The notes under the pieces are model-generated. The model did no database searches, was not told where the DNA came from, and was given only the letters and a program-made list of their open reading frames with translations. Below are positions 3,490 through 8,962 of a stretch of DNA of 36,028 bases, in pieces. The stretch is from positions 1-36,028 of the forward strand of contig JAENVV010000253.1 in the NCBI GenBank assembly GCA_016650365.1, in the 5' to 3' direction. This stretch comes from Acidimicrobiia bacterium (GTDB lineage: Bacteria > Actinomycetota > Acidimicrobiia > Spongiisociales > JAENVV01). The position numbers and the translations under genes are program-made. Within the stretch, counting starts at the first letter, position 1; the number at the start of each line of letters is the position of its first letter.

Positions 3490-4695
3490 TCATAGAACCG
3501 TTTCGTCCAACCCGTCCATATACGGGTCCCATTCGATCAGGGGAGGCGGCACGAATCCCTCGCCGAGATAGGCACGACCGATCATGGCGTGGAACTTCGC
3601 CAGCGACGACTCCCAAGAACTGAGCGGACCCGGCTGGAAACCCCGGTTTGACGCCCCTCGCTGAACCCCCTCGCAGGCCGCCCAATCTTCCTGATTGGTT
3701 TGATCCCAGAAATCGACGGCATACGAGGGATCAAAGTCATCCTGCCCGGCTACTTCGGGAGCAAAAAGCCATTCGCAAACGATACGGGTCTTCCCGGTAG
3801 ATGCCGGGGTCAGCGTGTGGGTCATGATGTAGTCCGGATGGGCGCTGATGAACAGATTCGGCATGACGAGCAGGTAAAGAACCTCGCGTTCAAGTCCAGG
3901 ATCAAGATTTCGAAACCGGGGCAGTCGCCGCTCCCCACTAAAGGACATAGTCTCGGCCTGGGGCTTGAGATCCATGGTCCCGCCGCACCACATGCCGTCA
4001 GAGGGAATCGTACGACCACTGCTTGGCGGGCTGACCTCGCAGAGGGCCGGATGGATGGTGGTGCAGTGATAACACTCAAGGTAGTTCTCGGCTATGAGTT
4101 TCCAATTGGCCGCGACTTCGTATTCGTGTTTGACGGCGCTGACCAGTCGTACGGGCTCGTAAGATGCCAGGACCTTCCCGAGCGAACCAAGGGTCGCTTC
4201 GAGCGTGTCGCCGTCGCCCGAGCTATTGACGAACAACCAGCCGAGCCATTCCCCGACCCGGACCGATTGAAGAGGCCAGTCCGCAAGATCGAATCCAGGG
4301 CTCTGGGTGAGAGTGGGGGCAGTGCGCAGGGTTCCGTCGAGCCGATACGCCCATGAATGGTACGGGCATCGAATCTGGCGAGCATCGATCCGCTCACCGA
4401 CGGCGAGCAACTCATGACCGCGATGCCGACACACGTTCGAGAACGCGGCGACTTGTCCATCGGGCTGCCGGGAAAGCAGAATCGTCTCTGCTCCTAGTTC
4501 CATCGCTCGTAGCTGGCCGGGGGAGAGCAGGTCGTCGAGTCGGCCGAGACAGACCCAACCGCCTTCGAACAACTCCTCCTGCTCCCAGGCGAATAAGCCA
4601 TGGGACGAATAGGCATCTGCTGGCAGCGTCCGGCTTTGACCGCCACGCAGGAGGAGCTTCTCGATGGTTTCTGTGGGAAGCGGGGCTGGATTCAT
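3490..4695 (-). CDS. Rieske [2Fe-2S] non-heme iron oxygenase, alpha subunit; likely demethylase
   Basis: The protein has 401 residues from ATG 4695, chosen because AAGGTG lies 6 bases upstream; the frame opens at ATG 4722 (410 residues). The Rieske cluster motif C-x-H (C89, H91) and C-x-x-H (C110, H113) is intact. The catalytic mononuclear iron motif ENYLECYHC-x3-H (about 203-215) and a later FWDQTNQEDW segment supplying the Asp ligand are also present. That last segment and the downstream GP-S-WE pattern resemble the glycine betaine/stachydrine/choline oxygenase branch rather than benzoate-type dioxygenases. The enzyme would use O2 and electrons from a separate reductase (not encoded here) to oxidise an N-methyl group, releasing formaldehyde. 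It is divergent from a GcvT-like gene across 170 bases. The substrate is inferred from family resemblance only. Confidence 0.85.
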   Translation of the reverse strand: MNPAPLPTETIEKLLLRGGQSRTLPADAYSSHGLFAWEQEELFEGGWVCLGRLDDLLSPGQLRAMELGAETILLSRQPDGQVAAFSNVCRHRGHELLAVGERIDARQIRCPYHSWAYRLDGTLRTAPTLTQSPGFDLADWPLQSVRVGEWLGWLFVNSSGDGDTLEATLGSLGKVLASYEPVRLVSAVKHEYEVAANWKLIAENYLECYHCTTIHPALCEVSPPSSGRTIPSDGMWCGGTMDLKPQAETMSFSGERRLPRFRNLDPGLEREVLYLLVMPNLFISAHPDYIMTHTLTPASTGKTRIVCEWLFAPEVAGQDDFDPSYAVDFWDQTNQEDWAACEGVQRGASNRGFQPGPLSSWESSLAKFHAMIGRAYLGEGFVPPPLIEWDPYMDGLDETVL

Positions 4696-4865
4696 TCCGG
4701 TCACCTTACGCCATTTCGCCATGCTGTAGCCGCTTCAAACGTCCCCTTCGGGATGACGATGAACGGCCCGTGTGAGCAGGCCGATCGGCAGGTAGCTAGC
4801 CTCACCAAACATGTTCAGTCGGTCAGCTCAGCGCGTCAATCTCGTAGCTCGTTCTAGGAGAGGCA

Positions 4866-6062
4866 ATGGTCCGTTACACCGCCTTTCATGACCGAACGAG
4901 GGCACTGAACACCACCGAACTGTGGTCTCATTGGGCCGGGTACCTTGCTGCGGACCGGTATCAACTCTCGGAGAAGTTCGAGTACTTCGCCATTCGCAAT
5001 AGCGTTGGCATGTTCGACACCTCTCCGCTCTACAAATACCGGATTCAGGGCGGCGATGCGGAGACATTTCTGGCAGGCCTACTTACCAGGAACATCCGTA
5101 AATGCCGGCCGGGCAACGCCCAGTACACCATCTGGTGCGACGACAACGGATTCATCATCGAAGACGGCGTGATCATTCGGCAATCGGAAACGGAATTTCT
5201 GCTGAGTACCGCCGAGCCAAACCTCGCCTACTTCGAGGATCGAATCGGCCGACTCCAGGTGACCATCGACGATATTTCCGACGACATGGCTGCCCTGGCG
5301 GTCCAGGGTCCCCGTTCGAAGACGATCCTGACTGAACTGATTCCCGAAGTAGCCGGGCTCGGCTACTTCCAGGCGACCGAAGCCAAGATTGGTGAAGCGC
5401 CCGTCGTCATCTCGCGAACAGGTTTCACCGGTGATCTCGGTTACGAAATTTGGGTGGAAAACGATTATGGGCTCGCTGTCTGGGACGCGGTTGCACGGGC
5501 CGGCGAAGGCTATGGCATTCTCCCGTTCGGAACGACTGCTCTCCTGATGGCTCGGATCGAAGCCGGGCTGGCCCTCATCGACGTGGACTTCTCGTCGTCT
5601 CGCTATGCATGGACCGATGCGGATCGAACGACGCCGATGGAATTGGGGCTTGGATGGATGGTACGCGACATCGACGATGGCGACCGCCAGTTCATCGGCC
5701 GTCGGGCCATCCTGCGCGAGATGGTCGCTGGATCTCGCTGGAACTTGATCGGGTTGCTGATCGACTGGAGGGACTGGTTCGACGTGTATGACCGCAACGG
5801 TCTCGTTCCGCCCAAAGACCACTTGCCCCATGAGTCCGAGTCAATCCTGTACGACGCGACAGACCAGCCGGTGGGCTACGCAACAAGCTTGATGTACTCG
5901 CCAATGGTCCAGCGACATATTGCCATCGCCCGGGTTCAACCGGAGCTGGCGGTTCCCGGCAATCAAGTCAACATGGAAGTCACCATTAACCACACGTGGC
6001 AACAGGTCAAAGCCCAGACAACCCGGATGCCCTTCTACAACCCACCCCACAAGACTGCATAA
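4866..6062 (+). CDS. GcvT-like aminomethyltransferase / folate-dependent demethylase
   Basis: The protein has 398 residues. It belongs to the glycine-cleavage T-protein fold family, whose members (GcvT, DmdA, the dimethylglycine and sarcosine demethylases) move a one-carbon unit from an N- or S-methyl substrate to tetrahydrofolate. Recognisable stretches are SVGMFDTSPLYKYRIQG near residue 50, LLTRNI, AVQGP-S (about 145), SRTGFTGDLGYEIW (about 182-195, the most conserved T-protein signature) and the C-terminal barrel with GLGWMVR and FIGRRAI. It starts at ATG 4866 behind AGGAGAGG. The flavoprotein gene follows after 9 bases, so the two form an operon. There are no GcvH, GcvP or Lpd genes nearby, so this is unlikely to be the glycine-cleavage T-protein itself. 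The substrate is unknown; a methylated amine or sulfonium is inferred. Confidence 0.85.
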   Translation: MVRYTAFHDRTRALNTTELWSHWAGYLAADRYQLSEKFEYFAIRNSVGMFDTSPLYKYRIQGGDAETFLAGLLTRNIRKCRPGNAQYTIWCDDNGFIIEDGVIIRQSETEFLLSTAEPNLAYFEDRIGRLQVTIDDISDDMAALAVQGPRSKTILTELIPEVAGLGYFQATEAKIGEAPVVISRTGFTGDLGYEIWVENDYGLAVWDAVARAGEGYGILPFGTTALLMARIEAGLALIDVDFSSSRYAWTDADRTTPMELGLGWMVRDIDDGDRQFIGRRAILREMVAGSRWNLIGLLIDWRDWFDVYDRNGLVPPKDHLPHESESILYDATDQPVGYATSLMYSPMVQRHIAIARVQPELAVPGNQVNMEVTINHTWQQVKAQTTRMPFYNPPHKTA

Positions 6063-6071
6063 GGACTGCGC

Positions 6072-7664
6072 ATGGCAATGGATCGAACCTATGACGCCAT
6101 TATCGTCGGAGGGGGCCACAACGGATTGGTGAATGGGGCCTACCTCGCCAAGACTGGACTCAAGACGCTCATCATCGAGCGACGGCATCTGGTCGGAGGG
6201 GCGGCGATCACCGAGGAGCTACACCCCGGATTCTCGTTCACCACGTTTTCTTATGCGCTGAGCCTGCTGCGACCCGACATCATTCAGGAGCTCGAACTCG
6301 TCAAGCACGGCTTCAAACCGCTACTCATGGAGTCAACGTTCGCTCCCATGAAAGACGGAAACTATCTCCTGTTGGGGCAGGACCACCAGGCCAACATCGC
6401 CGAGATTCGTCGACACTCCAAGCACGACGCAGACGCGTACGACCAGTATTCGCATGACGTAAATCGGGTATGCCGGGCGATCAAGCCGCTCCTCGATAAC
6501 ATACCGCCCGATATCACCAGCCGGGATCCGGAAGAACTCATCCGGATGGCAACTCTCGCTCAACACATGCGCGATCTGGACCCGGCGGTTCTCCACAATG
6601 CAGTTCGTCTGCTGACAGGCAGCGCAGCCGACTTTCTTGATGACTATTTCGACAGCGAAATACTCAAAGCGACGCTTGCCTCTTCGGGCATCATCGGGAC
6701 AAAAGTCGGTCCGATGTCTCAGGGTTCGGGTCTCGTTTTGCTCTACCACAAGATGGGAGAGCACGACGGTGATCAGTCTTCATGGGCGTTCCACAAAGGT
6801 GGCAACGGGGGCTTCACCCAGGTCCTCGCCAGGGCGTTCGAGTCATACGGTGGCGAGATCAGTCTCGAATCGCCCGTTGCCGCGGTAATCACCAGTAACG
6901 GCAGAGCCCGCGGCGTGGCGCTCGAAGATGGGACTGAGTTCAAAGCAGACATCGTCGTAAGTGCCCTTGACCCCCGGCGCACGTTCCTCGAGTTGGTGGA
7001 CCCACGCGAGCTTCCGTCAGATCTCGTGGAAAACATCAACCGCTTCCGATTCCAGGGAACCTCTGCAAAGGTCAATTTCGCTCTCGATGGTTTGCCAAGG
7101 TACCCGGCTCTCGGGAATCGCGGAGACCAGTTTCGCGGGTTCACCAATATCGGACCAACCATCGATTATCTCGAGCGGGCGTTTGATGACGCCAAGTACG
7201 GCTGGTACTCCAAGCAGCCGTACATCGATGCCTGTTTCCAATCCACGATCGATCCCGACATGGCTCCGCCCGGTAAACACGTGATGTCGGGATTCATCCA
7301 ATATGCCCCGTACGAACTGAAGGGGAGTGACTGGGACACCGAGCGCGAGACTTTCGGGGATACGGTCCAGGCCGTGCTCGAGTCACATTTTCCCGGATTT
7401 GGGGACCTGGTTCTCCACCGCGAAGTCGTAACACCCCTTGACATTGAACGGGTCGTGGGTCTATCGGAAGGTAACATTTTCGGAGGAGAGTTCCTCGCCC
7501 CACAGATGTTCTTTTTCCGACCTGCTCCCGGCTGGAACCAATATCGGACTCCGATCGAGGGCTATTACCAATGCGGCTCTGGAACTCACCCCGGCGGCTG
7601 CGTCATGGGGGCGCCAGGGAAACTGGCGGCAGCGCAGATCCTCAAGGACCAACAGCATCCCTAA
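6072..7664 (+). CDS. FAD-dependent oxidoreductase, PYROXD2 / phytoene-desaturase-like
   Basis: The protein has 530 residues. The N-terminus carries the dinucleotide-binding motif DAIIVGGGHNGL (about 8-19), then LIIERRHLVGGAA with the acidic residue that binds the ribose of FAD. The C-terminus has the second FAD contact, in YQCGSGTHPGGCVMGAPG (about 500-517). The length and the GTHPGG pattern match the NAD(P)/FAD-dependent oxidoreductase family that includes PYROXD2, rather than true carotenoid desaturases, and no crtB-like gene is nearby. It starts at ATG 6072 behind AAGGA, 9 bases after the GcvT-like gene. In this context it may oxidise an amine or a one-carbon intermediate produced by the Rieske and GcvT-like enzymes. 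That role is inference from neighbourhood. Confidence 0.85.
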   Translation: MAMDRTYDAIIVGGGHNGLVNGAYLAKTGLKTLIIERRHLVGGAAITEELHPGFSFTTFSYALSLLRPDIIQELELVKHGFKPLLMESTFAPMKDGNYLLLGQDHQANIAEIRRHSKHDADAYDQYSHDVNRVCRAIKPLLDNIPPDITSRDPEELIRMATLAQHMRDLDPAVLHNAVRLLTGSAADFLDDYFDSEILKATLASSGIIGTKVGPMSQGSGLVLLYHKMGEHDGDQSSWAFHKGGNGGFTQVLARAFESYGGEISLESPVAAVITSNGRARGVALEDGTEFKADIVVSALDPRRTFLELVDPRELPSDLVENINRFRFQGTSAKVNFALDGLPRYPALGNRGDQFRGFTNIGPTIDYLERAFDDAKYGWYSKQPYIDACFQSTIDPDMAPPGKHVMSGFIQYAPYELKGSDWDTERETFGDTVQAVLESHFPGFGDLVLHREVVTPLDIERVVGLSEGNIFGGEFLAPQMFFFRPAPGWNQYRTPIEGYYQCGSGTHPGGCVMGAPGKLAAAQILKDQQHP

Positions 7665-7769: not shown

Positions 7770-8906
7770 TCACCGGAGTTCGGCGACCATCGCCCTGGCT
7801 ACCCAGTCGTCAATGTCGGCCGGCACCGGCTGATCGCCGACCGAACAACTCGCCGGGTCGATCGCCAGACGTTCGAGGCACAACGCTTGCAGGCTGAACC
7901 CGAGGTCCATGATTTCGATCGAGTTTCCCCGGCTACCGGTCACCGCCAGATTCACCATTCGCCCTTGGGCGACCACATCGATCGACCCACCCGATGCGAA
8001 CCGATAGCGGGTTATGTCGGCACCCCGATCGCTTGGCACAGCAACCTTGCGAAGTCCTTCGACGTCAATTTCGTTGTCGAAATGGCCGGCGTTGGCGAGC
8101 ACCGCATTCGGTTTCATCCGTTCCATGTCTTCAACAGAAATGACATGAGCGTGTCCTGTTGCCGACACGAAAAGGTCACCAAGCGACGCCTCCTCCTCCA
8201 TGGTTGAGACCGCATAACCATCGATCGCCGCTTCGAGCGCCTTGATGGAATCCGGCTCGATCACAACGATATCGGCACCGGCGGCTCGTCCATATTGGGC
8301 GATGCCTCGACCGCACCAGCCGTAACCAAGCACGACCAACCGACGTCGATGCAGCAGAAGATTCGTAGCCGACCTGATCGACTCCACGACGGACTGGCCA
8401 ACCCCATGCTTGTTCTCAACGATCGCTTTCAGAGGACTGTCGTTGATGACAAGCACCGGGAATGGCACTCGACCCCGGAGCGACCCTCGCAATGTGATCG
8501 CGCCAGAGGTGGTCTCTTCGGTCGCCCCGAGCGGGGATTGATTGTCCTCAACAAGAAGTTCGATCATTTCCGCCCCGTTGTCGAGCGCCAGGTCAGGGCG
8601 CTCCGCCACAAGACGATGAAGGTTGGAGGCGATCGTCACATCGTCATCGGCTCGACTCCCGAACACTTCGATTCCGAGGTTCCGGAGGTACCCGGCGAGG
8701 AGATCGTCCGTCGTGCCTTTGTTGCCCATCGCTACGACCCGGGCACCGCCACCGACCAGCGCCCGTATCAGGACCCCGGTTTTCGGCTCGACGTGGATGC
8801 GAACCGCAATGGTCAGACCCTCGAACGGCCGTTCCTCGCTGAAACGACGTGCGATTGCCCTCAGAATGGGCATGTGGTCCGAAACGAACCCCATCCGACC
8901 ATCCAT
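7770..8906 (-). CDS. S-adenosylhomocysteine hydrolase-like protein, short (archaeal-type) form
   Basis: The protein has about 378 residues from ATG 8906, preceded by GGGGGAA; the frame opens 15 bases earlier at ATG 8921. Adenosylhomocysteinase cleaves SAH to adenosine and homocysteine with a bound NAD. Seen here are DNGAEMIEL, VINDSPLKAIVENKHGVGQS (where the usual K-x3-D-N reads K-x3-E-N), the NAD motif VLGYGWCGRGIA, VSATGHAHVI and NAGHFDNEID. The length, near 380 rather than about 430-470, is that of the archaeal/Thermotoga type lacking the 40-residue insertion. It converges on the flavoprotein gene, in a neighbourhood of methyl-transfer enzymes. Some short-type relatives act on S-inosylhomocysteine, which cannot be excluded. 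I leave the symbol blank for that reason. Confidence 0.85.
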   Translation of the reverse strand: MDGRMGFVSDHMPILRAIARRFSEERPFEGLTIAVRIHVEPKTGVLIRALVGGGARVVAMGNKGTTDDLLAGYLRNLGIEVFGSRADDDVTIASNLHRLVAERPDLALDNGAEMIELLVEDNQSPLGATEETTSGAITLRGSLRGRVPFPVLVINDSPLKAIVENKHGVGQSVVESIRSATNLLLHRRRLVVLGYGWCGRGIAQYGRAAGADIVVIEPDSIKALEAAIDGYAVSTMEEEASLGDLFVSATGHAHVISVEDMERMKPNAVLANAGHFDNEIDVEGLRKVAVPSDRGADITRYRFASGGSIDVVAQGRMVNLAVTGSRGNSIEIMDLGFSLQALCLERLAIDPASCSVGDQPVPADIDDWVARAMVAELR

Positions 8907-8962
8907 TGCCTGTTCCCCCATGCACCGAGCCTAGATCGTTCGGTACCGGCACACCGTCGGAG

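Follow-up and report, generated by a model that had tools for sequence, protein, structure and literature searches.

A Rieske oxygenase beside an obligate flavoprotein and GcvT-like gene pair: a candidate core for methylated-amine catabolism in an Acidimicrobiia bacterium

Known systems and the layout of the locus

The Rieske oxygenases of Group V, with CntA/YeaW, choline monooxygenase and OxyBAC in Group Va and GbcA and Stc2 in Group Vb, share a domain order, a bridging glutamate of the E205 type, the C206/C209 cysteine pair, a His-His-Asp site and a fold, all of which recur in the oxygenase described here. Group Va enzymes (carnitine, choline and benzalkonium oxygenases) have Tyr or Phe at the position of CntA Y203, and the N-demethylases of Group Vb (GbcA, Stc2) have Asn (PMC7948474), a rule which, it should be kept in mind, is based on few enzymes. 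Dimethylglycine dehydrogenase or oxidase and sarcosine oxidase follow the same logic as that proposed below, the flavin-dependent oxidation of an N-methyl amine being coupled to a folate domain; their flavin half is however fused or of the DAO type, whereas that of our locus is of the CrtI/MAO type and is encoded by a separate gene. There is also a precedent for a GcvT-domain protein that stands alone and is linked genetically to an enzyme of amine demethylation, namely the DmmD of Ruegeria pomeroyi and Paracoccus aminophilus, found with DmmABC. R. pomeroyi requires DmmD, encoded beside the dimethylamine monooxygenase, to grow on TMA and on TMAO, and the role proposed for the protein is to conjugate formaldehyde with THF (PMC5520151). 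DmmABC is nevertheless not a Rieske-flavoprotein system, and we found no paper joining a Rieske oxygenase with a GcvT protein in the present way in the open-access full text searched. The parts are of known kinds, while their combination appears to be undescribed, in line with the initial annotation, which had suspected an undescribed route.

The window, that is, the whole stretch of 36,028 nucleotides that we analysed, comes from a 3.49 Mb genome that is 97.8% complete. Read directly, it contains the three expected open reading frames: a Rieske oxygenase gene (3490..4722, minus strand), divergent from a two-gene unit made of a GcvT-like gene (4866..6062, plus strand) and, 9 bp after its stop, a flavoprotein gene (6072..7664, plus strand), so that the divergent arrangement first described stands. 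Both promoters are presumed to lie in the 143 bp that separate the divergent genes (4723..4865), a gap that has the same length in the closest relative, G001; a consensus scan, which says little in this genome, found no sigma-70-type site there. None of the three proteins reaches the NCBIfam cut-off for a named function. The flanking genes, coding for CysD, CysNC, an SAHH-like protein, an SLH/GerMN protein and a LigB/DODA-like protein, accompany the cassette in the closest loci only and look unrelated to it. The SAHH-like protein (7770-8921, minus strand) has 383 residues for adenosylhomocysteinase models of 416-418 positions; it passes the cut-off of just one of these, and is possibly a divergent paralogue.

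A Group V Rieske oxygenase and its signature residue

The first protein is a Rieske non-heme iron oxygenase alpha subunit (PF00355 and PF00848). Aligned to Stc2 and CntA, it conserves the [2Fe-2S] ligands C98, H100, C119 and H122, the mononuclear iron ligands H219, H224 and D346, and the bridging E216 with the cysteine pair C217/C220, the equivalents of CntA E205, C206 and C209 (CntA residues after PMC7948474 and PMC10952381). The Group V motif NYLECYHC...H is intact, whereas aromatic ring hydroxylases carry DxxH (DGYH or DMYH in BenA and a PAH dioxygenase). In the tree, the oxygenase belongs to a clade of its own, made of 15 rows of cassette Rieske proteins (support 99/99) and separate from the GbcA/Stc2-like, YeaW and aromatic references sampled, the last of which form their own branch (99/96). 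The matches of its sequence in the PDB are Stc2/3vca, 3n0q and CntA, and its AlphaFold model (pLDDT 88.5) retrieves Stc2 and CntA at the top of a Foldseek search, the 18 best matches being all Stc2, 3n0q or CntA, with any aromatic oxygenase ranking lower. Motif, tree and fold therefore bear out the quaternary-amine type assigned at the outset: judged by sequence and model, the protein is a Group V oxygenase, predicted to oxidize a quaternary ammonium substrate. An aromatic ring hydroxylase, the assignment that the initial annotation had named as fatal to its reading, is excluded by the glutamate in place of the bridging aspartate and by the separate position of the aromatic references. A plasmid-borne A. 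baumannii protein, taken at one point as CntA-like, had to be set aside as it is not CntA (its motif is EAYHL).

The same evidence speaks less well for demethylation, which the initial annotation had taken for granted. Y214 of our oxygenase occupies the position of CntA Y203 and is a tyrosine in all 15 members of the clade, while the GbcA/Stc2-like references show Asn. With a Va-type residue where the Vb demethylases have Asn, the label of demethylase is not supported by the signature; tyrosine for asparagine and a clade separate from GbcA and Stc2 both place the protein outside Group Vb. Identity with GbcA was likewise discarded (NF058607, 172.7 bits for a curated cut-off of 670), and with it the plain glycine betaine pathway (GbcA score 173/670, no GbcB). 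A rival reading is that the oxygenase works like CntA and choline monooxygenase, hydroxylating the carbon beside a quaternary nitrogen; cleavage of the C-N bond would then give an aldehyde together with a methylated amine, such as one resembling di- or trimethylamine, and this amine would be demethylated by the other two proteins. The attribution of Tyr/Phe to Va and of Asn to demethylases (PMC7948474) argues for this course of events, as do the aldehyde dehydrogenase and acyl-CoA dehydrogenase genes of several related loci. Modelling of the substrate pocket, proposed as a check, helped in part: it gave the match of Y214 with Y203, but the further pocket residues of CntA align unconvincingly with ours (a comparison of low confidence). 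Since moreover the best fold matches are Stc2 and the Va/Vb rule comes from few enzymes, we hold C-N cleavage to be rather unlikely, although because of Y214 it stays a strong rival.

The electron supply of the oxygenase raises a question of its own, as two-component Rieske systems have a cognate reductase. In agreement with the initial annotation, which had seen no reductase, there is none of the CntB/GbcB/YeaX type beside the trio and none genome-wide by PF00175, the only proteins with this domain being, as far as their sequences and gene neighbours tell, a PaaE-like and an FNR-like one. The enzyme must draw its electrons from a general donor or from a type of reductase outside PF00175, such as a GR-type ferredoxin reductase; a generic ferredoxin with its reductase would be our candidate. 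The genome holds a second Rieske gene, interrupted by a contig end (L084, G000:C275), whose product is about 37% identical to the first and has Phe at the signature position; the hydrolase-like gene that adjoins it also neighbours a Rieske gene in L075 and L077.

The folate protein, the flavoprotein and their pairing

The second protein (PF01571 and PF08669) is a stand-alone GcvT/DmmD-like folate-binding protein. None of the 75 sequences aligned departs from its D100, which falls by counting in the alignment on D96, the catalytic residue of the Thermotoga maritima GcvT. The best match in the PDB is the C-terminal domain of the TMAO demethylase Tdm (9q59, phmmer 1.8e-46), the closest characterised folate domain by sequence, and both proteins have an N-terminal TAFHD start. 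Ours lacks the N-terminal half of Tdm, however, and the corresponding NCBIfam model is matched in its C-terminal half only (239.3 bits), so that TMAO demethylase identity, which asks for two domains and 1100 bits, was rejected. The tree gives a clade of 23 rows (100/99), including the alphaproteobacterial cassette proteins, and distinct from the sequences sampled for the C-terminal domain of Tdm, E. coli GcvT, the DMGDH-like domains and DmmD, which sits on a long separate branch. DmmD is the nearest functional model, and the product would probably be 5,10-methylene-THF.

The third protein belongs to the CrtI/CrtO/PYROXD2-like branch of the amine-oxidase superfamily. PF01593 (Amino_oxidase) covers it in full, with an NAD_binding_8 motif, while a DAO match is confined to the first ~40 residues; the FAD motif G13-G14-G15-x-x-G18 with E36 and a C-terminal H506-P-G-G are present. 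Membership of the dimethylglycine dehydrogenase/oxidase family was rejected, the genes being separate and the flavoprotein of the Amino_oxidase, not the DAO, type. The AlphaFold model (pLDDT 89.9) has a carotenoid-desaturase/amine-oxidase fold, and the Foldseek matches are led by gamma-carotene desaturase and CrtI, with nicotine oxidoreductase, MAO and putrescine oxidase among the others. That the nearest solved structures are carotenoid desaturases and not N-demethylases is a point against a role in methylamine metabolism, and one could propose that the protein is a carotenoid or lipid desaturase or isomerase in a neighbourhood foreign to methylamines, all the more as its best NCBIfam model is CrtO. 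The scores are however far under the cut-offs (283.8 bits, roughly 284, for 1000; phytoene desaturase 101 for 238.1), the annotated loci showed neither a phytoene synthase nor any further crt gene, amine-type transporters occur nearby, and the strict pairing with a folate protein also speaks against such a role. This gene context and these scores led us to reject the carotenoid label, and we find the reading as a whole very improbable. A further difference lies in K333, present in 64 of 66 sequences and aligned with no lysine of CrtI; it is, we suspect, the equivalent of the catalytic lysine of MAO and LSD1-type enzymes.

Among 296 genomes of the class (GcvT at E<=1e-110, flavoprotein at >=70% identity, close Rieske at >=53% identity), the GcvT-like and flavoprotein genes occur in the identical 22 genomes, adjacent in 22 of 22 with a gap of -1 to 44 bp: they form an obligate pair. 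A close Rieske gene is found in 16 genomes, every one of them within the 22, and in 0 of the other 274, a co-occurrence of naive hypergeometric probability 7e-22, or 3e-12 at genus level (10 of 10 genera within 15 of 148), shared ancestry being uncorrected in both figures. The trio, whose conservation had been put forward as the first thing to verify, is thus conserved, and its arrangement is far from chance. In seven of the 16 genomes the Rieske gene lies at most 150 bp from gcvT, in four within 17 kb and in five on another contig.

A wider survey of 84,980 species genomes yielded 55 loci with a relative of the GcvT-like protein. Beyond the class, further Actinomycetota, Chloroflexota and Alphaproteobacteria also carry the module. 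The flavoprotein gene follows 3' of the GcvT-like gene in nearly all loci long enough, in Acidimicrobiia, Actinomycetes (including acI/Nanopelagicales) and Chloroflexota, and two flavoprotein genes stand upstream of it in Alphaproteobacteria. L007 and L011 were not retained as evidence for another phylum: their NCBI label, Acidobacteria, looks wrong, and the records match G051 and G210, of the window's own order.

It must be noted that the pair can work without the Rieske enzyme, six of its 22 genomes having no close one, and that many acI/Nanopelagicales and Chloroflexota loci show the pair with no adjacent Rieske gene. The two proteins might be a two-subunit demethylase in their own right, a split counterpart of dimethylglycine dehydrogenase that acts on a polyamine or an amino acid with a tertiary or secondary N-methyl nitrogen, and the oxygenase would be an optional upstream accessory. 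Yet the close Rieske gene never occurs without the pair (16/16), often at less than 150 bp, and the genes that seem to be absent may lie elsewhere in incomplete genomes; we rate this proposal as distinctly unlikely. More distant Rieske proteins behave in another way, and do not help the methylated-amine reading. Fifteen further genomes of the class have a Rieske protein of 46-50% identity and no close GcvT. Nine such loci were retrieved, and in six of them (L106, L107, L108, L109, L111 and L112) this ~45-50% Rieske gene adjoins that of a different flavoprotein (33-40%), with no GcvT; the transporter nearby is of the Pot type in some Acidimicrobiia families and of the family-3 binding-protein type in others.

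Extended cassettes and the proposed function

The notion of a three-gene cassette holds in the window but is too narrow for the relatives. Their loci add a PotABCD-type transporter (its ATPase is present in 25 loci), class-III aminotransferases, an aldehyde and an acyl-CoA dehydrogenase, and a TetR regulator whose C-terminal domain is of the BetI type. Sometimes there is a second Rieske or a second flavoprotein gene, and acI genomes also encode a fused FAD-GcvT (DMGDH-like) protein. In Rhodobacteraceae (Alphaproteobacteria) the order aminotransferase-FAD-FAD-GcvT-Rieske-Rieske-PotDABC makes up a single run. In G004, of the window's genus, PotABCD genes sit between the Rieske and GcvT genes, and a second Rieske gene lies 3' of the flavoprotein gene. 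The window and G001 have the trio with neither PotABCD nor a second Rieske gene adjoining it, and we can therefore understand the window as a reduced version of a larger assembly.

Some alphaproteobacterial cassettes are followed by a PF16867 'DMSP lyase' cupin, a modest Pfam match (L056:15783-16682 and L059:15509-16360, with an amidohydrolase next to it in L059), which was not seen in the actinobacterial loci; this made us consider DMSP or another S-methyl compound as a possible substrate. In Parasedimentitalea (L060:11087-13126) and Shinella (L139:9405-11441) the cassette comes with a flavin oxidoreductase of ~680 residues, which matches a dimethylamine dehydrogenase or StcD-like enzyme in size. 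The papers that we found gave no gene link for homarine as a substrate, and the Ruegeria pomeroyi transporter screen, where potFGHI takes polyamines, had no link to the cassette.

The rest of the genome puts the trio in perspective. Two long frames, on C32 (820 aa) and on C335 (756 aa or more), encode FAD-plus-GcvT proteins, and C192 contains the beginning of a further gene of this kind. Since these separate genes exist, the pair is an addition and not, as had been supposed, a replacement of the usual dimethylglycine oxidase. C192 (L095, G000:C192:1-6586) carries a class-III aminotransferase gene divergent from PotDABC, then the start of the DMGDH-like gene at the contig end; its Pot binding protein, 27% identical, is the only one of its kind in the genome, and the set is a second amine-catabolism cluster.

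Taken together, the initial interpretation is partly supported, and we think it slightly more probable than not that the trio is the catabolic core for a methylated, probably quaternary, amine, with capture of the one-carbon unit on folate. The substrate class and the order of steps that we infer are as follows. The oxygenase would make the first dioxygen-dependent attack on the cationic substrate, by removal of a methyl group or by hydroxylation of the carbon beside the nitrogen; the flavoprotein would oxidize the N-methyl amine so formed, a tertiary or secondary one, to an iminium or formaldehyde-level species, and the GcvT-like partner would transfer the carbon to tetrahydrofolate, giving 5,10-methylene-THF. 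In the relatives, uptake of the substrate would fall to the PotABCD-type importer and control of the pair to the BetI-type TetR repressor, and the amine, once stripped, would be handled by the class-III aminotransferase and the aldehyde dehydrogenase. The Group V motif and ligands, the match of fold with Stc2, 3n0q and CntA, the invariant GcvT aspartate, the likeness to the TMAO demethylase folate domain and the analogy with DmmD (PMC5520151) all agree with this scheme, as do the pairing and a context that combines transporter ATPase, aminotransferases, dehydrogenases, regulator and DMGDH-like protein. Against it count the characterised members of Group Va, non-demethylating enzymes whose signature the oxygenase shares, so that it may feed an aldehyde branch, and the window itself, where no transporter, regulator or aminotransferase adjoins the trio and the Pot and aminotransferase genes lie far away on C192.

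The wider proposition, to which we give somewhat less than an even chance, is that a Group Va-type Rieske oxygenase acts together with the obligate pair of CrtI/MAO-fold flavoprotein and GcvT protein, as an undescribed catabolic module, to break down a quaternary amine that is common in the environment and to pass its methyl carbon to folate. Carriers of the pair or of the whole module include freshwater acI-type Actinobacteria (Nanopelagicales), Chloroflexota and marine Alphaproteobacteria. The strict pairing makes this reading directly testable. Were it true, abundant uncultured bacteria would have a route from methylated nitrogen compounds to nitrogen and folate-bound carbon, and a large family of flavoproteins, which databases name after carotenoid enzymes, would have found a function.
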